Shown: positions 6,633 to 62,350 of the stretch, piece by piece
Layout: each line of letters opens with the position of its first letter
How positions within the stretch are numbered: the first letter of the stretch is position 1
Assembly (NCBI RefSeq): GCF_009176725.1
Contig: NZ_AP020337.1
Span: forward strand, 4,099,501 to 4,163,500
DNA from: Pseudomonas sp. KUIN-1
GTDB lineage: Bacteria > Pseudomonadota > Gammaproteobacteria > Pseudomonadales > Pseudomonadaceae
Direction: 5' to 3'
DNA: 64,000 nt
Notes under the pieces: model-generated
Seen by the model: the letters and a program-made list of their open reading frames with translations, nothing else
What the model was told of the DNA's origin: nothing
The model's database searches: none
Made by a program: the position numbers and the translations under genes

Positions 6633-6821
6633 TTAATGGCTTGGTTCTTCGTCCTTCTCTTTCTTGATACGCAGGTAAATCTCTTCACGGTGGACAGCGA
6701 CTTCCTTGGGCGCATTGACACCAATACGCACCTGATTACCCTTCACTCCGAGCACGGTGACGGTGATTTCACCATCCCCAATGATCAGGCTTTCCGCGCA
6801 CCGACGAGTCAGAATCAGCAT
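6633..6821 (-). CDS. csrA: carbon storage regulator CsrA/RsmA
   Basis: The 62-residue product begins [16 protein letters not shown], the hallmark of CsrA/RsmA, with the core [14 protein letters not shown] and the RNA-binding VHREEIY strand. The dimer binds GGA motifs in mRNA leaders and represses or stabilises them, in pseudomonads under control of the Gac/Rsm small RNAs. It lies between lysC and tRNA-Ser, the conserved location of rsmA. Several Rsm paralogues usually exist in P. syringae, so the exact paralogue letter is not assigned. Confidence 0.96.
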
Positions 6822-6990
6822 ACTTTTCTCCTTACGCCTTTATTCAGGGACAACAGTCTGCAACCTATAGGCAGTGACACTAGCAAAACGCCATGACCAC
6901 TACCTGTATATCGACTAACGCAAAGAAAACAAAAGCCCTTCTGCGCAGCACCCGAAAGACGCGGTCACGCCGCGCCCTTCGATGACAGGG

Positions 6991-8223
6991 TCATTCACCC
7001 TGCCGCGGAGCATCCAGCTCAAAGGCCGTGTGCAATGCGCGCACAGCCAACTCCAGGTATTTCTCTTCGATGACCACGGAAACCTTGATTTCCGATGTGG
7101 AGATCATCTGGATATTGATGCTCTCCTTGGCCAGCGCTTCGAACATACGACTCGCAACGCCGGCATGCGAGCGCATGCCGACGCCGACGATGGACACCTT
7201 GGCGATCTTGGTATCGCCGGACACTTCACGCGCGCTGATTTCACGCGCGGTGGCTTCGAGCACCTGCAAGGCCGCCTGATAGTCGTTGCGATGGATCGTG
7301 AAGGTGAAATCGGTGGTGTTATCGTGCGAGACGTTCTGCACGATCATGTCCACTTCGATATTGGCCGCGCTGATCGGGCCGAGAATCTTGAACGCCACGC
7401 CGGGGGTGTCTGGCACACCACGGATGGTCAGCTTGGCTTCATCGCGGTTGAAGGCGATGCCGGAAATGATCGGCTGTTCCATGGATTCCTCTTCATCGAT
7501 TGTAATAAGGGTGCCCGGCCCCTCTTTGAAGCTGTGCAGAACGCGCAGCGGGACATTGTATTTGCCGGCGAATTCGACCGCACGGATCTGCAGCACCTTG
7601 GAACCGAGGCTGGCCATTTCCAGCATCTCTTCGAAGGTGATCTTGTCGAGGCGCTGGGCCTGCGACACGACACGCGGATCGGTGGTGTAGACGCCATCGA
7701 CGTCGGTGTAGATCTGGCACTCGTCCGCTTTCAGCGCCGCCGCCAGGGCAACACCGGTCGTGTCCGAGCCACCACGGCCGAGGGTGGTGATATTGCCGTG
7801 TTCGTCGACACCCTGGAAACCGGCGACCACCACCACGCGACCCGCTTTCAGGTCGGAGCGGATCTTCTGGTCGTCGATCTGCAGAATGCGCGCCTTGTTG
7901 TGCGCGCTGTCGGTGAGAATACGTACCTGATTGCCGGTGTAGGACACCGCCGGAACGCCACGCTTCATCAAGGCCATCGCCAGCAGCGCGATGGTGACCT
8001 GCTCGCCCGTGGAGACAATGACATCCAGCTCACGGGGAACCGGCTGATCACTGATCTGCCTGGCCAGCTCGATCAGACGATTGGTTTCACCGCTCATGGC
8101 CGACAGCACGACCACCAGGTCGTCACCCGCCTCACGGAATTTCTTGACCTTGTCGGCCACCTGCTCGATGCGCTCTACAGAGCCCACGGAGGTGCCGCCA
8201 AATTTCTGTACGATTAAAGCCAT
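6991..8223 (-). CDS. lysC: aspartate kinase
   Basis: The 410-residue product starts MALIVQKFGGTSVGS, the aspartokinase nucleotide/aspartate-binding motif, and has the kinase domain to about residue 245 followed by two ACT domains (about 265-400) for feedback control by lysine and threonine. It phosphorylates aspartate in the first step towards lysine, methionine, threonine and diaminopimelate. The length fits the monofunctional alpha-type enzyme; such genes often also make a beta subunit from an internal start. It lies 91 bases behind alaS on the same strand. Confidence 0.96.
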   Translation of the reverse strand: MALIVQKFGGTSVGSVERIEQVADKVKKFREAGDDLVVVLSAMSGETNRLIELARQISDQPVPRELDVIVSTGEQVTIALLAMALMKRGVPAVSYTGNQVRILTDSAHNKARILQIDDQKIRSDLKAGRVVVVAGFQGVDEHGNITTLGRGGSDTTGVALAAALKADECQIYTDVDGVYTTDPRVVSQAQRLDKITFEEMLEMASLGSKVLQIRAVEFAGKYNVPLRVLHSFKEGPGTLITIDEEESMEQPIISGIAFNRDEAKLTIRGVPDTPGVAFKILGPISAANIEVDMIVQNVSHDNTTDFTFTIHRNDYQAALQVLEATAREISAREVSGDTKIAKVSIVGVGMRSHAGVASRMFEALAKESINIQMISTSEIKVSVVIEEKYLELAVRALHTAFELDAPRQGE

Positions 8224-51124: not shown

Positions 51125-51949
51125 TCAACGAGCGTTGGCGAAGCGGCGCAATGCGCTGAGGGTCACGTCCTGTTCTGGCGCTTGCGGTGCGCTATCGACA
51201 GCCGCGTGCACCTTGACGCCCAGCAAGCCCAGCAAGCGGCTGCGAATCAGCTGAAACCCGGCCTGCCCGCTGTCGCGCTGGCGCGGCAGGTCGACGCGGA
51301 TGTCGTCGGCAATCCTGCCGTCGGCCAGCACGTTGACCCGGTCAGCGAGCAGGATCGCCTCATCGACATCGTGCGTCACCAGCAGCACCGCCGGGGTGTG
51401 TTTGCGCCACAGGTCGATGATCAACTGATGCATGCGAATGCGCGTCAACGCATCGAGTGCGGCAAAAGGCTCGTCGAGCAGCAACAGTTTTGGCTCACGG
51501 ACTAGCCCTCGCGCCAGCGCCACACGCTGCGCTTCGCCGCCGGACAAGGTGGCAGGAAAGGCATTCAGCCGATGCGCCAGGCCAACCTCGGTCAACGCCG
51601 CTTCGGCCCGAGCCTTGGCATCGTTGATACGCAAGCCGAGAACCACGTTCTTCCAGGCGCTTTTCCACGGCATCAGGCGCGGTTCCTGAAACACCGCCGC
51701 ACGTGCCACCGGCACACGCAGTTCGCCGCTGTCGATCTCGTCCAGCCCGGCCAGGGTGCGCAGCAAGGTGGTCTTGCCGGAGCCACTGGCGCCGAGCAAG
51801 GCGACAAATTCGCCAGAAGCAATGTCCAGATTCAGCCCGTCGATGACCCGTTGCCGGCCAAACTGGCGCACCACGTTGCGCAGTTGTACAGGCGCCTGCC
51901 CCGCCTCGGGAGACACGGATGGAGTGTTGCGCAGATCAGGAGTCGCCAT
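51125..51949 (-). CDS. sulfonate-type ABC transporter ATP-binding protein (SsuB-like)
   Basis: The 274-residue product has Walker A LLGASGSGKTTLLRTL, signature LSGGEAQRVALARGL, Walker B LLLDEPFAALD and H-loop VTHDVDEA, and belongs to the SsuB/TauB/NrtD group importing sulfonates, taurine or nitrate. It begins four bases after the permease gene and surely works with it and with a periplasmic protein, probably the one encoded near 57.7 kb. Confidence 0.92.
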   Translation of the reverse strand: MATPDLRNTPSVSPEAGQAPVQLRNVVRQFGRQRVIDGLNLDIASGEFVALLGASGSGKTTLLRTLAGLDEIDSGELRVPVARAAVFQEPRLMPWKSAWKNVVLGLRINDAKARAEAALTEVGLAHRLNAFPATLSGGEAQRVALARGLVREPKLLLLDEPFAALDALTRIRMHQLIIDLWRKHTPAVLLVTHDVDEAILLADRVNVLADGRIADDIRVDLPRQRDSGQAGFQLIRSRLLGLLGVKVHAAVDSAPQAPEQDVTLSALRRFANAR

Positions 51950-51953
51950 GTGT

Positions 51954-52811
51954 TCAATGCCTCACGAAGGTCGGTCGCCAGGCCAGCGCATAGCGCTCCA
52001 GCGTGCGAATGATGGCGTCGATCACCAGGCCAAGGACGCTGTAGATCAACAGGCAGATAACGATCACATCAGTGCGCATGAAGTCCCGTGCATCACTGGC
52101 CAGATAACCGATGCCAGCGGTGGTGTTGATTTGCTCGACAAAGACCAGGGCCAGCCACGAAATACCCAGTGAATAGCGCAGCCCGACAAAAAACGCAGGC
52201 AGCGAACCGGGCAGGATGACGTGCCAGATCAGTTCGCGGCGGCTCAAGCCGAGCGTATTGGCAGCCTCGATCAGTTTCGGGTCGATATTGCGGATGCCGG
52301 AAAACAGGTTCAGGTAAACCGGAAAGGTGGTGCCCATGACGATCAGCGCCACTTTGGTGAACTCGCCAATGCCGAACCAGAGGATGAACAGTGGCACCAA
52401 TGCCAGCGAGGGAATGGTGCGCAACATCTGCATGGGCGAGTCGAGAACGATTTCGCCGCGCCGGGAAAGCCCGGTCACCAGCGCAGCGACCACGCCGATG
52501 CTGACGCCAATGCTCAAGCCCAACAGTGCCCGTTGCAACGAGACCCACAAGTGGTGGGCCAGTTCGCCCGAAACGATCATCGACCAGAGCGTACCGCCGA
52601 TCTGCGATGGCGCGGCAATCACGCGGACGGGCAGCAGGCCGGTTTGTGAGGCCAGTTCCCAGAGCAGCAACAGCACCAGCGGGCTGAGCAGACGCAAGAC
52701 AAAGCCCGGCACTTGCCAGCGCGGGCGACCCGATTGCGAGACGCGCCCCTGTTCGGGTTTGTTCACCACCAGAAAACCGGGTTCTGCGGGGTTGAGCGTT
52801 GTGTCAGACAT
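51954..52811 (-). CDS. sulfonate-type ABC transporter permease (SsuC-like)
   Basis: The 285-residue product has six hydrophobic helices and the EAA loop NTLGLSRRELIWHVILPGSL of the SsuC/TauC family. I start at MSDTTLNPAEPG behind an AAGGATG site. It is divergent from the flavin monooxygenase gene across a gap with a large inverted repeat. Substrate not fixed by sequence. Confidence 0.92.
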   Translation of the reverse strand: MSDTTLNPAEPGFLVVNKPEQGRVSQSGRPRWQVPGFVLRLLSPLVLLLLWELASQTGLLPVRVIAAPSQIGGTLWSMIVSGELAHHLWVSLQRALLGLSIGVSIGVVAALVTGLSRRGEIVLDSPMQMLRTIPSLALVPLFILWFGIGEFTKVALIVMGTTFPVYLNLFSGIRNIDPKLIEAANTLGLSRRELIWHVILPGSLPAFFVGLRYSLGISWLALVFVEQINTTAGIGYLASDARDFMRTDVIVICLLIYSVLGLVIDAIIRTLERYALAWRPTFVRH

Positions 52812-52885
52812 GGGTACATCCTTCCTGGACAAACCGGGCAGGACGCACCCGATGCATTATGAAGGCCATATTATGAGCATAAGAA

Positions 52886-53000: not shown

Positions 53001-53068
53001 TCTGCCCCTTGCCTTTATGGTGCCTCTCGACAAGGTCGAACGGACCTCAACCATTGGCAGGAGTTTTC

Positions 53069-54157
53069 ATGAGCATCGAATTCATTGGCTATATCGCCAC
53101 GCAACCCGGTTCTGAAATTCACCCGCGCAGCGGCGCGACCATCCAGCCCGACTACGTGAAGACCGTCGCCAAGGCTCATGAAGATGCCGGTTTTGATCGT
53201 GCACTGATCGCCTACCACTCCAACAGCCCGGACAGCACGCTGGTCGCAGCGCATGCCGCCAGCGTCACCACCAAGCTGAAGTTTCTGGTCGCCCATCGCC
53301 CTGGCTTCATCGCCCCTACTGTAGCGGCACGCCAGTTCGCGACGCTGGACGTGTTCAATGGCGGGCGCACCGCCGTGCATATCATCACCGGTGGTGACGA
53401 CAAGGAACTGCGCGCCGACGGCAGCCACATCGGCAAGGACGAACGCTACGCACGCAGCGACGAGTACCTCAGCGTAGTGCGTCAGGAATGGACCAGCGAC
53501 AAGCCGTTCGATCATAACGGCACCTACTACCAGCTCGAGGGTGCGCATTCACTGGTCAAATCCCCTCAGCAGCCACATATCCCGCTGTACTTCGGCGGCT
53601 CCTCGGCAGCGGCGATTGCGGTGGCCGGCAAGCACGCCGATGTTTATGCGTTGTGGGGCGAGACATACGAACAGGTGCGTGAAGTGGTGAAGCAGGTTCG
53701 CGCCGAAGCCGCCAGACATGGGCGGACCATTCGTTTCAGCCTGTCACTGCGCCCGATTCTGGCCGAGACCGAGGAACAGGCCTGGGCACGCGCCGACAGT
53801 ATTCTGGAAAAGGCCAAGGCCCTGGCAGACCGCAACGGCTTCGTACGTCGCGAACCACCGAATGAAGGATCACGCCGCCTGCTCGCCGCCGCTGCACAAG
53901 GATCGCGCCTGGACAAGCGCCTGTGGACCGGCATCGCCGGCCTGCTCGGCGCACAGGGCAATTCGACCTCGCTGGTCGGCACCCCGGAACAGGTCGCCGA
54001 AGCGCTGCTGGATTACTACGATCTGGGGATTACCACCTTCCTGATTCGCGGCTTCGATCCACTGGAAGATGCCATCGACTACGGCAAGAAGCTGATCCCG
54101 CTGACCCGCGCATTGGTGGCGCAGCGTGAACAGCAGGCTCGCGAACAGGTCGCCTGA
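53069..54157 (+). CDS. LLM-class FMNH2-dependent monooxygenase (SsuD-like)
   Basis: The 362-residue product is a bacterial luciferase-fold protein: GSEIHPRSGATIQPDYVK, RPGFIAPTVAARQFATLD, HIITGGDDKEL and PLYFGGSSAAAIAVAGKHAD follow alkanesulfonate monooxygenase SsuD. It should release sulfite from a sulfonate or oxidise a related C-S bond with reduced FMN from a partner reductase. No reductase gene is found in this cluster. The ATG follows AGGAG. Confidence 0.9.
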   Translation: MSIEFIGYIATQPGSEIHPRSGATIQPDYVKTVAKAHEDAGFDRALIAYHSNSPDSTLVAAHAASVTTKLKFLVAHRPGFIAPTVAARQFATLDVFNGGRTAVHIITGGDDKELRADGSHIGKDERYARSDEYLSVVRQEWTSDKPFDHNGTYYQLEGAHSLVKSPQQPHIPLYFGGSSAAAIAVAGKHADVYALWGETYEQVREVVKQVRAEAARHGRTIRFSLSLRPILAETEEQAWARADSILEKAKALADRNGFVRREPPNEGSRRLLAAAAQGSRLDKRLWTGIAGLLGAQGNSTSLVGTPEQVAEALLDYYDLGITTFLIRGFDPLEDAIDYGKKLIPLTRALVAQREQQAREQVA

Positions 54158-54222: not shown

Positions 54223-55128
54223 TCAGGCGGCTGCCGAGACCGGCTTGAGCGACCGCGCCACCAGTGCGCCAAAGGCTTCGACCGGCGCTTGCAGGTTACC
54301 CAGGAAGCGCGGGTAGAACAGCCACAAGTCCATCACCGGCTTGAAATCCTTGAGCGGCAACGCCACCAACTGCTCGCGGTGCGCGCTGCGTTCCAGCAAC
54401 GGCCTGGGCACCAGGCCAAGCCCCATGCCATCGGCCACCAGCCCGAGTTGCAGCTCGGTGCCGAAAGTTTCCAGATTGACCTTCATGCTCAGGCCCTGAT
54501 CGGTCAGCGTGCGCTGCAAGCCTGCACGAAAGCCGCAGCCGTCCGGATTCAGCACCCAGCCCTGCTCATAACAGTCCGCCAGCTTGCCGGGCTTTTTCGG
54601 GGCCAGCCCCCTGGCGCAGACCACCACCAGCTCCATCTTGCCAATCGACTGACCGATGATGTTGTCCGGAAATATCTTGCCTGCCGGAAACAGCGCAGCC
54701 GCCGCATCCAGCTCGCCGTTTTCGATCTTGCCGATCAGGTGGCTGCCCCAACCGGTGCTGACCTGCGCACGCAGGTCCGGAAATTCCCCACGCAACTGCT
54801 TGAGCGCATCGAGCAGCACCACGTCACCGATGGTTTGCGGCACGCCCAGACGCAACAGACCGCTGGGCGGCGTGTCACTGGCCACCAGCTCGCGCAACGA
54901 ATCCATCTCGCGCAGGATCGCCAGGCACTTCTGGTAAACCTGAAGCCCCATCGGAGTCGGCTTGAGCGGCTTGGTATTGCGGTCGAACAGCTCGACTCCG
55001 AGGGCTTGCTCGAAATTCTGCACCCGGCGCGTTATGGCTGGCTGGGTCAGATCCAGCGATTCAGCGGCGTGGCTGATCGACTGGCAGCGGATGACTGCAA
55101 CGAACGCATCGATATCATCAATTTTCAT
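54223..55128 (-). CDS. LysR-family regulator, divergent from the thiol dioxygenase
   Basis: The 301-residue product has the N-terminal LysR helix-turn-helix (SISHAAESLDLTQPAITRRV, about residues 15-40) and an effector domain. It starts at MKIDDIDAFVAV; the longer frame adds an unlikely hydrophobic extension. It is divergent from the dioxygenase gene, like PA2601 beside PA2602 in P. aeruginosa (recalled), so it likely controls the dioxygenase-rhodanese pair. Confidence 0.9.
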   Translation of the reverse strand: MKIDDIDAFVAVIRCQSISHAAESLDLTQPAITRRVQNFEQALGVELFDRNTKPLKPTPMGLQVYQKCLAILREMDSLRELVASDTPPSGLLRLGVPQTIGDVVLLDALKQLRGEFPDLRAQVSTGWGSHLIGKIENGELDAAAALFPAGKIFPDNIIGQSIGKMELVVVCARGLAPKKPGKLADCYEQGWVLNPDGCGFRAGLQRTLTDQGLSMKVNLETFGTELQLGLVADGMGLGLVPRPLLERSAHREQLVALPLKDFKPVMDLWLFYPRFLGNLQAPVEAFGALVARSLKPVSAAA

Positions 55129-55329
55129 TCGGACCGCACATAAAAAAGAGATTAAACATAGGCAAAAAGCATAGTACCAGCCGGCGCTCATGGATAGCCC
55201 GAGCGTAGATTTCGCGGATTACGACAAAGAAGTAAAAGACGTTTTCGTTATAACCTAATCATTAAAAAATAGCATATTAAATATCAATATTATGATTATA
55301 TCGAACCATTCCCCGACTTTGATCTGGAA

Positions 55330-55941
55330 ATGGACATGACTCAGAACCGACACCCGGAACGACTCGGGGCGTTTATCGATGCCCTCACCGAACTGCTTGG
55401 CAGCGAGCCGCACGAAGGCGATCTGTTGCGTCGCGGCGGCAAGCTGCTGGCGCAGCTGGTCAGCCACGATGACTGGCTGGCGGAAGAATTCACCGTACCC
55501 GACGCCAACCGCTATCAGCAATTTCTGCTGCATGCCGATCCGCAGCAGCGCTTTTCGGTGGTCAGTTTCGTCTGGGGACCGGGGCAGCGCACGCCGATTC
55601 ACGACCACCGCGTCTGGGGGCTGATCGGCATGCTGCGCGGCGCGGAAGACGCCCAGGGCTACCGTCGCAACGCGCAAGGGCGCCTGGAAACCAGCGGCCC
55701 GGCGATTCGCCTGCAACCCGGGCAGGTCGAGGCGCTGTCACCGCACAGCAACGATGTCCATCAGGTCAGCAACGCCTTCAGCGATCAGGTGTCGATCAGC
55801 ATCCACGTTTACGGCGCCGATATCGGCACCGTCAAGCGTGCGGTCTATGACCTCGACGGCAGCGAAAAACTGTTCATCTCCGGCTATTCGAACGCCGCCA
55901 CTGCCCATCAGGATCAGCCAACAGGGAGCCCGACCCCATGA
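55330..55941 (+). CDS. 3-mercaptopropionate/cysteine dioxygenase (thiol dioxygenase)
   Basis: The 203-residue cupin has iron ligands H91 and H93 in TPIHDHRVWGLIG and H144 in NDVHQVSN, plus the Ser157-His159-Tyr161 triad in SISIHVYGADIG. Its FSVVSFVWGPGQ region matches PA2602 of P. aeruginosa, a 3-mercaptopropionate dioxygenase, as I recall it; true cysteine dioxygenases differ in the substrate-binding arginine. It oxidises a thiol to a sulfinic acid with O2. The last four bases overlap the rhodanese start. Confidence 0.92.
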   Translation: MDMTQNRHPERLGAFIDALTELLGSEPHEGDLLRRGGKLLAQLVSHDDWLAEEFTVPDANRYQQFLLHADPQQRFSVVSFVWGPGQRTPIHDHRVWGLIGMLRGAEDAQGYRRNAQGRLETSGPAIRLQPGQVEALSPHSNDVHQVSNAFSDQVSISIHVYGADIGTVKRAVYDLDGSEKLFISGYSNAATAHQDQPTGSPTP

Positions 55942-57521
55942 CCACACCTGCCACCCGATCATTCGCCGACATTCGCCAGGCCTTGCTGGACCGTCAGGAG
56001 CTGGCCCTGGTAGACGTCCGCGAAGAGGCACCCTTTGCCCAGGCTCATCCGCTGTTTGCCGTGAACATCCCGTTGTCGAAGCTGGAGCTGGAGGTTTTCT
56101 CCCGCATCCCGCGACGCGACACGGCCGTGACGCTGTACGACGATGGCGAAGGCTTGGCCCAGATCGCCCTGCAACGCCTGCAGACACTGGGCTACAGCGA
56201 CGTGAAACTGCTCGACGGCGGCCTGCAGGGCTGGCGCGCGGCTGGCGGCGAGCTGTTCATCGACGTGAATGTGCCGAGCAAGGCGTTTGGCGAGCTGGTG
56301 GAGCATCACCGCGCCACCCCGTCGCTGGCCGCAGAAGAGGTCAAGCGCCTGCTCGACAGCAATGCCGACGTGGTGGTGCTCGATGCCCGGCGCTATGACG
56401 AATACCAGACCATGAGCATTCCCGGCGGCATCAGCGTGCCGGGTGCCGAACTGGTGCTGCGGGCACGTGAGCTGGCACCGGATCCCACTACTCGAATCAT
56501 CGTCAATTGTGCCGGTCGCACGCGAAGCATCATCGGCACCCAGTCGCTGGTCAACGCGGGTCTGCCCAACCCGATCAACGCACTGCGCAACGGCACCATT
56601 GGCTGGCTGCTGGCCGGCCAGACGCTGGACCATGGCCAGAACCGGCGTTTTGCGGCAGTCAGTGAAGAGACCCGCGAAACCGCCAGTGCCGATGCCCGCA
56701 AGGTGGCCGATCGCGCCAGCGTCAAACGTGCCAGCCGTGCCGATCTGCAACGCTGGCAAGCCGAGGCTTCACGCACCACTTACCTGTTCGATGTACGCAC
56801 CCCGGAAGAGTTTGCCAAAGGCCACCTGCCCGGCGCGCGCTCTACACCGGGCGGGCAACTGGTGCAGGAAACCGATCATTTCGCCAGCGTACGCGGTGCG
56901 CGAATCGCTCTGCTGGACGACGACGGCGTACGCGCCAACATGTCGGCCTCCTGGCTGGCACAGTTGGGCTGGGACGTGGCGGTGATCGATGACCTGGATG
57001 CGGCCGACTTCAGCGAACAGGGCGACTGGGACGCGCCCTTCCCGACGCCGCCGCAGGTGGAGGCGATCAGCGTCGAGACTCTCACCCAGTGGCAGACACA
57101 GGTAAAGGTGGCGGTGCTGGATTTCACTGCCAGCGCCAACTATGTCAAACAGCATATTCCCGGCGCCTGGTGGACCTTGCGTGCCGACCTGAAACAGGCG
57201 CTGCACAAGCTGCCGGCTGCTGACCGCTATGTCTTGACCTGCGGCAGCAGCCGTCTGGCGCGCTTCGCCGTGGCCGACCTCGAAGCGTTGACCGACAAGC
57301 CGGTGTTCCTGCTCGAAGGCGGCACCGCCAGCTGGATCAAGGCAGGTCTGCCGCTGGAGCACGGCGAAAGCCGACTGGCCTCGCCACGCATCGATCGCTA
57401 CCGCCGCCCGTACGAAGGCACCGACGCACCGCGCGAGGCCATGCAGGCGTATCTGGACTGGGAATTTGGCCTCGTAGAACAGCTGGGACGTGACGGGACA
57501 CATGGGTTTTACGTGATTTGA
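55938..57521 (+). CDS. four-domain rhodanese (thiosulfate sulfurtransferase-like)
   Basis: The 527-residue product holds four rhodanese repeats (about residues 1-105, 128-235, 262-360, 375-480). The active cysteine is present in repeats 2 (C191, VNCAGRTRS) and 4 (C435, LTCGSSRLA) but missing in 1 (YDDGEGLA) and 3 (LDDDGVRA). It therefore looks like two copies of an inactive-active pair. It overlaps the dioxygenase gene by four bases (ATGA), so the two are translated together; substrate is likely sulfane sulfur derived from thiols. Confidence 0.93.
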   Translation: MTTPATRSFADIRQALLDRQELALVDVREEAPFAQAHPLFAVNIPLSKLELEVFSRIPRRDTAVTLYDDGEGLAQIALQRLQTLGYSDVKLLDGGLQGWRAAGGELFIDVNVPSKAFGELVEHHRATPSLAAEEVKRLLDSNADVVVLDARRYDEYQTMSIPGGISVPGAELVLRARELAPDPTTRIIVNCAGRTRSIIGTQSLVNAGLPNPINALRNGTIGWLLAGQTLDHGQNRRFAAVSEETRETASADARKVADRASVKRASRADLQRWQAEASRTTYLFDVRTPEEFAKGHLPGARSTPGGQLVQETDHFASVRGARIALLDDDGVRANMSASWLAQLGWDVAVIDDLDAADFSEQGDWDAPFPTPPQVEAISVETLTQWQTQVKVAVLDFTASANYVKQHIPGAWWTLRADLKQALHKLPAADRYVLTCGSSRLARFAVADLEALTDKPVFLLEGGTASWIKAGLPLEHGESRLASPRIDRYRRPYEGTDAPREAMQAYLDWEFGLVEQLGRDGTHGFYVI

Positions 57522-57563
57522 TGCCGTTGAGTACACCGCGCAGCGCATTGGCACAAGCGCCAA

Positions 57564-57653
57564 GTGGGAGCGAGCTTGCTCGCGAAGAGGGCGCTACATT
57601 CAGTGCATTTTCTGCGTCTGGAACAGGGTCTTCGCGAGCAAGCTCGCTCCCAC
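57564..57653. repeat. REP pair, flanked by short direct repeats
   Basis: GTGGGAGCGAGCTTGCTCGC begins a 25-base arm (57564-57588), repeated exactly in inverse at 57629-57653. The core is the same as in the pair near 39.65 kb. The pair sits between related direct repeats, ATTGGCACAAGCGCCAA at 57547 and ATTGGCACAAGCGTCAA at 57685. The gap (57522-57745) holds no gene. Confidence 0.93.
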
Positions 57654-57745
57654 AAGGCTGCGTCCGACTCTAAAGGTGAGGCGTATTGGCACAAGCGTCA
57701 AAGGCTCATCAGGACTATTCATCACCCTATTGGAGACACACTTAA

Positions 57746-58735
57746 ATGCTGCCTTTTTTCAAATCCCCCCTGCCCTTCAAAAGCCTGTTGCTGGGCGCGC
57801 TGTTGAGCGTCATGGCAGGTCAGCAGGTTCTGGCCGCTGAGCTGGCACCGTTGCTGGTGGCCAACCAGAAGTCACTGCTCAAAGTGCTGTTGCAGGTCTC
57901 CGGCGAACTCAAGGGTGTGCCGTACGAAATCAAGTTCTCCGAGTTCCCTTCGGCCGCGCCTTTGGGTGAAGCGCTGAATGCCGAGGCAGTGGATATCGGT
58001 GCACTGGGTGATGCACCTTATGTGTTTGCCCTCGGCGCAGGTGCACCGTTGAAAGTGGTCAGCATCACCCACGCCCAAGGCCGATTCACCACCGCCGTGC
58101 TGGTGGCGAAAGATTCGCCGATCCAGACCGTGGCCGACCTCAAAGGCAAGCGCATCGTCACCGGGCGTGGCTCCATCGGCCACTATCTGGCGATTCGCGC
58201 GCTGCACCAGGCGGGGCTCAAGACCAGCGATGTGACCTTCATCTACCTGTTGCCCAGCGAATCACGGCTGGTGCTGGCCAATGGCGACGCCGATGCCTGG
58301 GCAACCTGGGACCCCTACACCACGATCTCCATCAGCCAGAACGATGCGCGCGTATTGGTCAGTGGTAACGAACTGCTGAGCAACCACCTGTACCTCGCCG
58401 CAACCAGCAAGGCCATTGACAGCAAACGCGTGCAACTGGAGGACTTCGTGGCCAGGGTCGAGCGCGCCTTCGACTGGACCAACAATCATCCAGAGGAGTA
58501 TGCCGCTGCGCAGGCCAAAGTCACCGGCCTGCCAGTAGACGTGCATCTGGCCGTGGCGAAGGCCACAAAGATGCAGCGTACGCCGATTGATGACCCGATT
58601 ATTCAGGGCCTGCAAGAAACCGCCAACACCTACCTGGCGGAAGGCATCGTCAGCAAGCCCATCGACGTCTCGACCGGCTTCGATAAAAGCTTCAACACAT
58701 CGCGTGCCCGGATTGCCCAGGCCAACGCTCACTAA
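57746..58735 (+). CDS. sulfonate-type ABC transporter substrate-binding protein (SsuA-like)
   Basis: The 329-residue product has a signal peptide (about residues 1-30, ending VLA) and the SsuA/TauA/NrtA fold: KFSEFPSAAPLGEALNAEAV, VDIGALGDAPYVFALGAGAP, LKGKRIVTGRGSIGHYLAIR and DADAWATWDPYT. It should deliver a sulfonate or organosulfur compound to the permease encoded at 51-53 kb, or to one elsewhere. It lies 32 bases ahead of the acyl-CoA dehydrogenase-like gene. Confidence 0.93.
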   Translation: MLPFFKSPLPFKSLLLGALLSVMAGQQVLAAELAPLLVANQKSLLKVLLQVSGELKGVPYEIKFSEFPSAAPLGEALNAEAVDIGALGDAPYVFALGAGAPLKVVSITHAQGRFTTAVLVAKDSPIQTVADLKGKRIVTGRGSIGHYLAIRALHQAGLKTSDVTFIYLLPSESRLVLANGDADAWATWDPYTTISISQNDARVLVSGNELLSNHLYLAATSKAIDSKRVQLEDFVARVERAFDWTNNHPEEYAAAQAKVTGLPVDVHLAVAKATKMQRTPIDDPIIQGLQETANTYLAEGIVSKPIDVSTGFDKSFNTSRARIAQANAH

Positions 58736-58767: not shown

Positions 58768-59946
58768 ATGAAACTTTCACCGCTTCGTCAGCACCGTGAG
58801 CTGTCCGAATCAGCAGCAGATTTCGCCACCCGGCTGGAAGGGATTACCGCAACGCTGGCCGAAACCGCAGAGCACTACGATGCCAGCGGAGCATTCCCCC
58901 ACGCCAACTTTGCCTTGCTGCACAGCCATGGCCTGCTGGGCTTTACCGTGCCCGCCGAACTGGGCGGCGGCGGTGCCGATCTGGCGCGAGCGCAACAGGT
59001 CGTCAGCGCAGTGGCCAGGGGCGAACCGTCGACAGCGCTGATTCTGGTGATGCAGTACCTGCAGCATTCGCGCCTGCAAGAGAACAGCCAATGGCCGACT
59101 GATCTGCGCATTCGCGTGGCCGAAGAGGCGGTTCGCGACGGCGCGCTGATCAACGCCCTGCGCGTGGAGCCGGACCTGGGCACACCCGCACGCGGCGGCC
59201 TGCCGGGCACCATCGCCTGCCGTACCGCCGAGGGCTGGCGGATCAGCGGCAGCAAGATCTACTCCACCGGCAGCCAGGGTCTGACCTGGTTTGCCGTGTG
59301 GGCGCGCAGCGATGACGATGACCCGCTGGTGGGCAGCTGGCTGGTTCACAAGGACACGCCGGGCATCACCATCATTGAGGACTGGGACCATCTGGGCATG
59401 CGCGCCACCAGCAGCCACGAAGTCAGATTCGACAACGTGATGGTGCCGCTCGATCACGCGGTCAGCGTCAGCCCGTGGAGCGCCCCGCAATCCGAACTGG
59501 ATGGATCGGGCCTGCTGTGGATGGCGGTGCTGCTGTCGTCGGTCTACGACGGTATCGCCCATTCCGCCCGCGACTGGCTGGTGCACTGGCTGGAACAGCG
59601 CAAACCGTCCAATCTCGGGGCGGCACTTTCGACGCTGCCGCGTTTTCAGGAAACCGTCGGGCATATCGACACACTGCTGTTCGCCAACCAGAACCTGCTG
59701 CAATCCGCAGCACAGGGACACACGTCCGCCGAACATGCCGCGCAGATCAAATTTCTGGTGACCGGCAATGCCATACGCGCCGTGGAGCTGGCCGTCGAAG
59801 CCTCGGGCAACCCGGGCCTGTCGCGCAGCAACCCGCTGCAGCGTCATTACCGCAATGTACTGTGCGGTCGGGTGCATACGCCGCAGAACGATGCGGTGCT
59901 CATCGGTGTGGGCAAAGCGGCTTTTGCCAGGCGCAATAAAGGGTAA
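58768..59946 (+). CDS. acyl-CoA dehydrogenase-fold flavoprotein (DszC/SfnB-like)
   Basis: The 392-residue product has the acyl-CoA dehydrogenase fold: LGFTVPAELGGGGADLARAQ, ISGSKIYSTGSQGLTWFAVW, DWDHLGMRATSSHEVRFDNV and the C-terminal bundle. Absence of an obvious CoA-enzyme base and linkage to a sulfonate-type binding protein point to DszC/SoxC/SfnB-type flavin monooxygenases acting on sulfur compounds. [10 protein letters not shown] precedes the ATG. It converges with a LysR gene. Confidence 0.9.
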   Translation: MKLSPLRQHRELSESAADFATRLEGITATLAETAEHYDASGAFPHANFALLHSHGLLGFTVPAELGGGGADLARAQQVVSAVARGEPSTALILVMQYLQHSRLQENSQWPTDLRIRVAEEAVRDGALINALRVEPDLGTPARGGLPGTIACRTAEGWRISGSKIYSTGSQGLTWFAVWARSDDDDPLVGSWLVHKDTPGITIIEDWDHLGMRATSSHEVRFDNVMVPLDHAVSVSPWSAPQSELDGSGLLWMAVLLSSVYDGIAHSARDWLVHWLEQRKPSNLGAALSTLPRFQETVGHIDTLLFANQNLLQSAAQGHTSAEHAAQIKFLVTGNAIRAVELAVEASGNPGLSRSNPLQRHYRNVLCGRVHTPQNDAVLIGVGKAAFARRNKG

Positions 59947-61054: not shown

Positions 61055-61777
61055 ATGCTGACTCTTCGCAAAGCTTCCGATCGCGGCGCGGCTGATCATG
61101 GCTGGCTGAAATCCTTTCATACCTTTTCCTTCGCCAGCTATCGTAATGCGCAGGAACAGGGCTTTTCCGATCTGCTGGTCATCAATGACGACCGTGTGAC
61201 TGCAGGTAAAGGCTTTGGCCAGCATCCGCACCGCGACATGGAAATTTTTTCCTATGTGCTGGAAGGTGCGCTGGAACATAAGGACACGCTGGGCACCGGC
61301 TCGGTGATACGCCCTGGCGACGTGCAGTTGATGAGTGCCGGTAGCGGCGTGGCGCACAGCGAGTTCAACCACTCGCAGACCGAAGGCGTGCATTTTCTGC
61401 AGATATGGATCGTGCCGAATGTCGCCGGTGCCACGCCCAACTATCAGCAGGAACACTTCAGCCCTGAACAGAAACGCGGCCGTCTGCAACTTATCATCGC
61501 CCCTGAAGGCGAGAATGGCGCACTGAAAGTTCGTCAGGACGCCCGTGTGTACGCAGGTCTGTTCGATGGTGATGAAACCGCCGCGCTTGAGCTGGCTGCC
61601 AATCGCTATGCCTACGTGCATGTCGCCCGTGGCAGCGTGGTGCTCAATGGCGAGCGACTTGGCGAAGGTGACGGGGTGCGCGTGCGTAACGAGCGGCTGA
61701 TCAGCCTGAGCGAAGGGGTTGATGCGGAAGTGCTGGTGTTTGATATGCGGCCTAATGAATTGCCGCAGATGCCTTGA
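61055..61777 (+). CDS. pirin family protein (YhhW-like)
   Basis: The 240-residue bicupin has the pirin metal site in FGQHPHRDMEIFSYVLEGAL and EFNHSQTEGVHFLQIWIVPN, and a C-terminal cupin with HVARGSVVLNGERL. YhhW of E. coli has quercetin 2,3-dioxygenase activity in vitro; the natural substrate is unknown. GGAGAAAG precedes the ATG. It is divergent from a LysR gene. Confidence 0.93.
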   Translation: MLTLRKASDRGAADHGWLKSFHTFSFASYRNAQEQGFSDLLVINDDRVTAGKGFGQHPHRDMEIFSYVLEGALEHKDTLGTGSVIRPGDVQLMSAGSGVAHSEFNHSQTEGVHFLQIWIVPNVAGATPNYQQEHFSPEQKRGRLQLIIAPEGENGALKVRQDARVYAGLFDGDETAALELAANRYAYVHVARGSVVLNGERLGEGDGVRVRNERLISLSEGVDAEVLVFDMRPNELPQMP

Positions 61778-61924
61778 TGCATCGATTGATATCAGGAAAA
61801 CCTAGCGTTTCTTTCACTTGATTGGTGCTGCGAGGTAACCCACGCTCCCGCCCTCCACCAGTCGCTCGCGGCACTGACCGGGCCGCATTGGGCTAGCCGA
61901 TCAGACATCAAGTGAGGAAAAACC

Positions 61925-62350
61925 ATGCCCCATGATCAACACTATGATTGTGTTCTTCTGAAGCCCGCCCGCACCTTTCAAGGTAAGCAGGGCCTGGATT
62001 ATCAAGTCGGTATTTCAGCCCAAAGTGCGGGCGCGCGTCACATTCATATGCAGTTGCTGACGATCCCGCCCGGAGGTAAAGGCAAGGCACACAAACATCA
62101 GGAGCATGAAACAGCTATTTACGCACTGAGTGGAGCTACCGGCTGCTGGTATGGCGAGTCGCTGGAAAAACATGCAGTCGTGGAAGAAGGCGACTTCTTT
62201 TACATCCCGGCGGGCATGCCGCATGTGCCTTATAACCGCAGCAGCGAGAATGCAGCCACAGCTTTGATTGCGCGTACCGATCCAAATGAGCAGGAAAGCG
62301 TGACCTTGCTGCCGGAACTAGACGAGGTATTGGCTTCCAGGCAGAGCTGA
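61925..62350 (+). CDS. single-domain cupin protein
   Basis: The 141-residue product has cupin motif 1, KAHKHQEHETAIYALSGATG, with three histidines and one glutamate for metal binding, and motif 2, FFYIPAGMPHVPYNRSSENA. It could be an oxygenase, isomerase or sugar/auxin-binding cupin; nothing narrows this down. A GTGAGGAAAAACC ribosome site precedes the ATG. A terminator follows the gene. Confidence 0.9.
   Translation: MPHDQHYDCVLLKPARTFQGKQGLDYQVGISAQSAGARHIHMQLLTIPPGGKGKAHKHQEHETAIYALSGATGCWYGESLEKHAVVEEGDFFYIPAGMPHVPYNRSSENAATALIARTDPNEQESVTLLPELDEVLASRQS

Follow-up and report, generated by a model that had tools for sequence, protein, structure and literature searches.

Does a rhodanese that carries two cysteines at catalytic positions possess two active sites, and what would such an enzyme do beside a thiol dioxygenase? 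The question is raised by a four-domain rhodanese gene in a 64,000 bp stretch of Pseudomonas sp. KUIN-1 DNA (NZ_AP020337.1, positions 4,099,501 to 4,163,500 of the forward strand), called the window below. We found that, of the two apparent active sites, just one is shared by all the relatives examined. The protein is best read as a sulfurtransferase of the family of Protein Data Bank (PDB) entry 1YT8, an activity predicted from homology. The fold of this family has been solved, yet no function was established for it in the open-licence literature searched.

Conservation of the catalytic positions

In rhodanese loops, the first position is catalytic and the closing Arg helps to bind anions. 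These positions were compared across a family set composed of contig loci (80), close-relative loci (10), phylum-wide genomes and further stretches. For the contig loci, the 80 best-matching of the 570 relatives were taken, that is, the closest ones, mostly from Pseudomonas. From 169 loci, those with a best rhodanese match below 120 bits (L011-L020) were left out, and the remaining 159 gave 134 distinct proteins after identical ones were merged. This set includes a gene with a frameshift (L010), a fragment from a contig end (L090) and three fusion proteins; loci L170-L175 stand outside it.

Cys191 and Arg196 of the domain 2 loop were present in 134 of 134 family proteins, the loop being CAGRTR in 133 of them and CAGLPR in one. 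Asp327 and Arg332 of the domain 3 loop were equally invariant (134/134 each). Because the Asp at the Cys position and the loop Arg are both kept, domain 3 is not decaying. Position 68 in domain 1 was occupied by Asp in 129 proteins and by Gly in five. At position 435 we found Cys in 106 proteins, Ser in eight, Ala in eight, Leu in one and Val in one (the frameshifted L010), with domain 4 missing in the last ten. The domain 4 loop ended in Leu, never in Arg, in all 106 proteins bearing Cys435. Mean pairwise identity among 15 diverse members was 0.746 for domain 2, 0.711 for the C-terminal tail, 0.638 for domain 3, 0.565 for domain 1 and 0.481 for domain 4.

A preliminary description of this DNA had proposed two active sites in one chain. 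Both cysteines do occur in the window protein, but across the family Cys435 lacks the constancy of Cys191 (106/134 against 134/134), its loop is without the Arg, and domain 4 is the least conserved of all and sometimes absent. Since only one site is kept across the relatives, a model with two duplicated active sites is questionable, and the conservation pattern corrects the tempting view that two cysteines mean two such sites. Within the contig set, Cys435 was found in 79 of 79 distinct proteins (the 78-row conservation set excludes L090 and one row merged as identical), and it may matter among these mostly Pseudomonas proteins.

Domain architecture and family

The four rhodanese repeats described before were recovered as four PF00581 stretches (E 2.9e-48), and the presence of Cys191 in the second and Cys435 in the fourth was confirmed (Table 1). 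Repeats 1 and 3 contain no catalytic Cys and show the loops DDGEGL (Asp68) and DDDGVR (Asp327) instead, and the dead-live-dead-live layout holds in the window protein. The domain boundaries were set by hand, and the registration of the catalytic position in repeats 1 and 3 came from the MAFFT domain alignment.

Through the phmmer search, P. aeruginosa 1YT8, which we take to be PA2603, matched residues 5-527 of the window protein at E 3.2e-261; because the match spans these residues at such a value, the four domains are far beyond chance. An AlphaFold model aligned with 1YT8 over 522 residues, with 73% identity, a root-mean-square deviation (rmsd) of 2.0 and Z 50.1. This model was built from 14 rows, and the mean confidence score (pLDDT) was 80.1 for the best model and 57.6-64.2 for the other four, with tail residues 486-498, 504-518 and 523-527 below 50. 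The list of structural matches concerned mostly domains 2 and 4 and hardly covered domains 1 and 3.

With four PF00581 domains, full-length homology including the tail and the CAGRTR loop, the window protein is a member of the known four-domain 1YT8/PA2603 family. Tandem-domain TST/MST chains have two domains and about 280 aa. This class was excluded by the four domains, the length of 527 aa and a score of 27 bits to the curated 3-mercaptopyruvate sulfurtransferase model NF008557, against a cut-off of 250.

Table 1. Features of the rhodanese locus (positions in the window)
Feature	Position	Strand	Evidence
ABC transporter ATP-binding protein	51125..51949	-	homology search
ABC transporter permease	51954..52832	-	homology search
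SsuD-like flavin monooxygenase; open reading frame (ORF) listed from TTG, searched from 53066	53009..54157	+	homology search
LysR-type regulator, divergent, often beside the pair	54223..55191	-	homology search
3-mercaptopropionate dioxygenase (3MDO) homologue, 203 aa	55330..55941	+	PDB 3uss/4tlf match
ATGA stop/start overlap, dioxygenase/rhodanese	55938..55941	+	sequence
Four-domain rhodanese (1YT8 homologue), 527 aa	55938..57521	+	ORF, PF00581, phmmer, structural alignment
Domain 1, aa 6-106, Asp68 at catalytic position, no Cys there	55953..56255	+	alignment
Domain 2, aa 127-232, Cys191, loop CAGRTR	56316..56633	+	alignment
Domain 3, aa 259-354, Asp327 replacing catalytic Cys, Arg332 kept	56712..56999	+	alignment
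Domain 4, aa 373-477, Cys435 in loop CGSSRL	57054..57368	+	alignment
C-terminal tail, aa 478-527, conserved, present in 410-aa three-domain relatives	57369..57518	+	alignment
SsuA-family aliphatic sulfonate binding protein	57746..58735	+	TIGR01728 202.8 bits, cut-off 163.5
Acyl-CoA-dehydrogenase-fold flavoprotein	58768..59946	+	NCBIfam

Origin of the domain arrangement

The arrangement had been read as the duplication of an inactive-active pair, and the alignment of the repeats was run for domains 1 to 4 (D1 to D4) of 15 of the 134 proteins. In the resulting tree (69 rows, 103 columns), each position formed its own clade (D1 99/97, D2 100/100, D3 100/100, D4 100/97), the backbone was unresolved, and neither D1+D3 nor D2+D4 was recovered. 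Forcing D1+D3 cost 0.25 log units (p-AU 0.376) and forcing D2+D4 cost 1.84 (p-AU 0.174); D1+D2 cost 7.35 (p 0.283) and D3+D4 cost 4.97 (p 0.159). Because the first two constraints, neither of them rejected, were the cheapest of the pairings tried, the data seem to lean slightly towards a pair duplication. Ordinary two-domain rhodaneses have the YDDG loop of domain 1 in their N-terminal domain as well, and the tree places this N-terminal domain on the same side as D1 and D3, with weak support (73/54). In the window protein, D2-D4 was the best pairwise match (Z 10.8, with 8.4 for D1-D2 and 5.6 for D1-D3). The profile comparison, however, gave no pair pattern: the six domain pairs scored 65-84 with D1-D2 at the top (83.8), and D1-D2 was also the best pair in two other members (Z 8.8 and 10.6). 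With 103 columns, separate clades and an unresolved backbone, domain phylogeny does not settle the question.

Although the constraint costs, the YDDG loop, the D2-D4 match and the fixed Cys435 of the contig set speak for it, we regard it as rather improbable that an inactive-active pair was duplicated to give an enzyme with two equivalent active sites. Such an enzyme is difficult to reconcile with the absence of Cys435 from 28 of the 134 proteins (ten without domain 4, one of the rest frameshifted), with the missing loop Arg and with the distribution of the residue on the family tree given below. A duplication that gave two active sites is not demonstrated, and what the wider family shows for domain 4 conflicts with it.

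Variation of domain 4

The family tree was built from 43 of the 134 proteins with the domain 4 columns excluded, and the placement of the long branches L140, L125, L126 and L138 in it is uncertain. All 13 rows outside a main branch of 30 rows are without Cys435, twelve having another residue and one having no domain 4. Inside the main branch, Cys435 was found in 21 rows; it is absent in L124 and in four rows from small genomes of a single genus, and another four rows, all from one genus, have no domain 4 at all. At least three changes between Cys and other states at position 435 are needed on this tree. Since the tree is unrooted, gain of Cys435 and multiple loss cannot be distinguished. The pattern suggests that domain 4 is accessory and that its Cys would be characteristic of a single family branch.

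A 410-aa version composed of domains 1-3 and the tail was found in nine genomes of one genus (g122) with a match, four of which were aligned. A Novosphingobium plasmid encodes the same build, with domain 4 missing and the tail kept, and in L171 both domain 4 and the tail are missing, the loop being CAGLPR. Loci with the three-domain version that keeps the tail are L141 (5000-6232), L164-L169 and L170 (open frame 6755-8218). One same-genus copy (L010, 1501-3079) is frameshifted near the border of domains 3 and 4, with domain 4 and the tail in another frame, which may reflect a sequencing error or a genuine break of the gene.

Association with thiol dioxygenases

The gene upstream of the rhodanese encodes a 3MDO homologue, predicted to oxidise 3-mercaptopropionate; its product matched PDB 3uss/4tlf at E 2e-72 over residues 10-190 of 203. 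The reported four-base overlap of the two genes was confirmed as ATGA. An overlap of -4 was kept in 71 of 80 contig loci, in 10 of 10 close-relative loci (own genome included) and in 13 of 27 phylum-wide four-domain loci. Among the others, no 3MDO match was present in one of the 80 and in ten of the 27, and the rest were spaced from -8 to +208. These spacings hang on the choice of start codons, since the starts nearest to the expected position were taken. Neighbour genes were found by tblastn with defined queries, and greedy ORF calling was noisy in GC-rich loci. For the contig loci, matches above 150 bits were counted in flanks of up to 5 kb, some cut by contig ends; for the 27 phylum-wide loci, the flanks were 1.5 kb in 26 and about 5 kb in one. 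By this count, 78 of the 80 contig loci contained 3MDO, and the two remaining ones, L023 and L090, are truncated by contig ends within the dioxygenase and the rhodanese.

In the phylum sample of 398 genomes (thresholds E 1e-20 for 3MDO and E 1e-40 for the rhodanese), 24 genomes carried 3MDO, one of them (G345) by a partial match. All 24 carried the rhodanese, which was itself found in 39 genomes; the distribution of either gene is patchy. Counted by genus, the figures were 15/15 against 22/212 (hypergeometric p 5e-18, phylogeny not corrected for). The link of the rhodanese to thiol dioxygenases is strong, though not exclusive.

The overlap of the two genes had led to the suggestion of a fixed stoichiometry or a direct transfer of sulfur between the two enzymes. 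The conserved overlap and the 24/24 co-occurrence speak for a complex or channel that passes a sulfur intermediate, with coupled translation fixing the stoichiometry. However, ATGA overlaps are common in bacterial operons, no 3MDO-rhodanese fusion ORF appeared in the loci examined, and four small genomes from a single genus (G187, G239, G329, G418) have the two genes separated by about 3.6 to 315 kb. Furthermore, in L155 and L175 the rhodanese stands beside a flavin monooxygenase and no 3MDO was seen in the stretch.

A P. protegens CHA0 study (PMC12947264) also bears on this suggestion. There, c14110-c14100 (3mdo-tst), homologues of PA2602-PA2603, apparently form one transcription unit. Deletion of 3mdo raised extracellular 3-mercaptopropionate, but deletion of tst gave no significant change (1716 +/- 128 against 1457 +/- 94 pg/OD600 at 4 h, and 1968 +/- 128 against 1750 +/- 125 at 8 h). 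The tst phenotype described there covers extracellular 3-mercaptopropionate only, not sulfite or thiosulfate. Because relatives have other partners and the effect of the tst deletion was not significant, an exclusive hand-over of sulfur with 3MDO is weakened, while the close and conserved pairing of the genes stands. Direct channelling to 3MDO is possible and the evidence does not require it; we judge such a complex or channel, with its stoichiometry fixed by coupled translation, to be very improbable.

Relatives with other partners

Of the 13 proteins that fall outside the main branch, eight had a mercaptosuccinate-dioxygenase-like gene in the locus and six a cystathionine-beta-lyase-like gene (these counts include the query sources L130, L136 and L145/L125), and four (L137, L138, L139, L140) had neither. 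In L130 (4758-7529), L131 and L135, the rhodanese is fused to a cystathionine-beta-lyase-like enzyme, giving proteins of 917-923 aa encoded downstream of a mercaptosuccinate-dioxygenase-like gene. The fused lyase part of L130 is PF01053, and its dioxygenase is closest to PDB 8vni, a mercaptosuccinate dioxygenase (E 2.7e-36). A study on Variovorax and Advenella (PMC5373536) describes a mercaptosuccinate dioxygenase gene clustered with rhodanese-domain and cystathionine beta-lyase genes, with sulfite as the product that has to be handled.

These loci suggest a persulfide clean-up, in which a beta-lyase would turn mixed disulfides into R-S-SH and the rhodanese would strip the sulfane sulfur from it, freeing the thiol for the dioxygenase, with the sulfite formed downstream as the sulfur acceptor. 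The three lyase fusions and the matches of L130 agree with this scheme. Against it, three beta-lyase queries gave no match above 100 bits in any locus with 3MDO beside the rhodanese, and for this reason the lyase step does not belong to the window-type locus. The four loci with neither partner and the insignificant effect of the tst deletion on 3-mercaptopropionate do not fit it either, and we give it a small but real chance.

Other relatives stand in a sulfonate-gene setting. In L155, an SsuD-like gene lies just upstream of the rhodanese, and 3MDO was absent from the locus and from its genome G286 (tblastn/E 1e-20). On an Agrobacterium Ti plasmid (L175, 1071-8110), a same-strand series of monooxygenase, SsuA, SsuC, ATPase and LysR genes is followed by the rhodanese and then by a cupin protein, with no 3MDO annotated in the stretch.

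Proposed role

What these loci likely have in common is that sulfite is formed from a sulfinate or sulfonate next to a protein whose one persulfide-type Cys is invariant. Considering that Cys191 is fixed, Cys435 optional, and Asp327 and Arg332 fixed, in the neighbourhood of two thiol-dioxygenase classes, a beta-lyase and sulfonate genes, a testable proposal can be made. The best-supported role would be one in which Cys191 exchanges sulfane sulfur with sulfite, in either direction. In the window-type locus, 3MDO would oxidise 3-mercaptopropionate to the sulfinate, and the sulfinate or a sulfonate would be broken down to sulfite. Cys191, within the CAGRTR loop of domain 2, would carry the persulfide, and the rhodanese would move sulfane sulfur between persulfide and sulfite (persulfide plus sulfite to thiosulfate, or the reverse), by which the sulfur may become usable or be made harmless. 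Domain 3, through its Asp/Arg pseudo-site, and the C-terminal tail probably help to form or cover the place where the substrate binds, and domain 4 may be accessory; for domains 3 and 4, this assignment is drawn from the conservation pattern. The layout of the domains, the conserved residues, the order of the genes and their co-occurrence are observed directly, and from them we infer the catalysis, the substrates, the sense in which sulfur moves and the parts played by domain 3, domain 4 and the tail. As a whole, a sulfurtransferase with its catalytic centre in domain 2 and with these roles of the other parts, acting in organosulfur scavenging, is an account that we hold with middling confidence.

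Several points weigh against this account. No enzyme activity study of the 1YT8-type family was found in the open-licence literature searched. Of 25 genomes of the same genus, counting the window's own, 10 gave a full-length rhodanese match, and a gene so patchy is therefore not a core function. Further, ten of the 27 phylum-wide loci gave no 3MDO match within the flanks covered, Cys435 is constant in the contig set, and the tst deletion left 3-mercaptopropionate without significant change.

A bolder form of the proposal would make the four-domain rhodanese a common partner of the mercapto-acid thiol dioxygenases, 3MDO and mercaptosuccinate dioxygenase. Its single essential Cys of the Cys191 type would take sulfane sulfur from a mercapto-acid persulfide and free the thiol, while the Asp/Arg pseudo-site of domain 3 would bind the acid group or the acceptor sulfite. 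We consider this form quite unlikely.

Other genes of the locus

The genes around the pair include predicted sulfonate functions (Table 1). For the SsuD-like protein, the best solved relatives are alkanesulfonate monooxygenases, with a curated model score of 264.6 bits (cut-off 510). The flavoprotein had SfnB (109 bits, cut-off 431) and 3-sulfinopropanoyl-CoA desulfinase (100 bits, cut-off 600) as its best NCBIfam models. In the 80 contig loci, LysR was found in 68, SsuA in 53, the SsuD-like gene in 47 and the acyl-CoA-dehydrogenase-like gene in 36. Scans for promoters and terminators showed no excess over shuffled sequence (1 where 0.6 was expected, and 1 where 2.1 was expected). A stretch of about 24 bases recurs in inverted copies between the genes for the rhodanese and SsuA (57550-57660); it was noticed by eye and has a REP-type look. 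Pirin-family and small cupin genes follow the sulfur cluster at 61055-62350.

Comparison with known systems

Tandem-domain rhodaneses such as bovine TST and A. vinelandii 1E0C have an inactive N-terminal domain followed by an active C-terminal domain, matching the D1-D2 layout; they contain two domains, whereas the window protein contains four and has CAGRTR as its active loop. The persulfide dioxygenase-rhodanese fusion of PDB 5VE3 has a similar rhodanese fold (Z 14.2, rmsd 2.4 over 103 residues) and is also tied to a dioxygenase. However, that dioxygenase belongs to a different dioxygenase family, and it is fused to one rhodanese domain, in contrast to the separate four-domain protein of the window. 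Judged by gene content rather than sequence, the Variovorax/Advenella cluster has the same gene set as some of our deep relatives. The 3mdo-tst genes of P. protegens, likened by their published description and not by sequence, correspond to the gene pair of the window in another species. The same architecture is found in 1YT8, deposited as a P. aeruginosa thiosulfate sulfurtransferase, whose Asp loops and both Cys are seen in the alignment; judged from the alignment alone, only ordinary substitutions separate it from the window protein.

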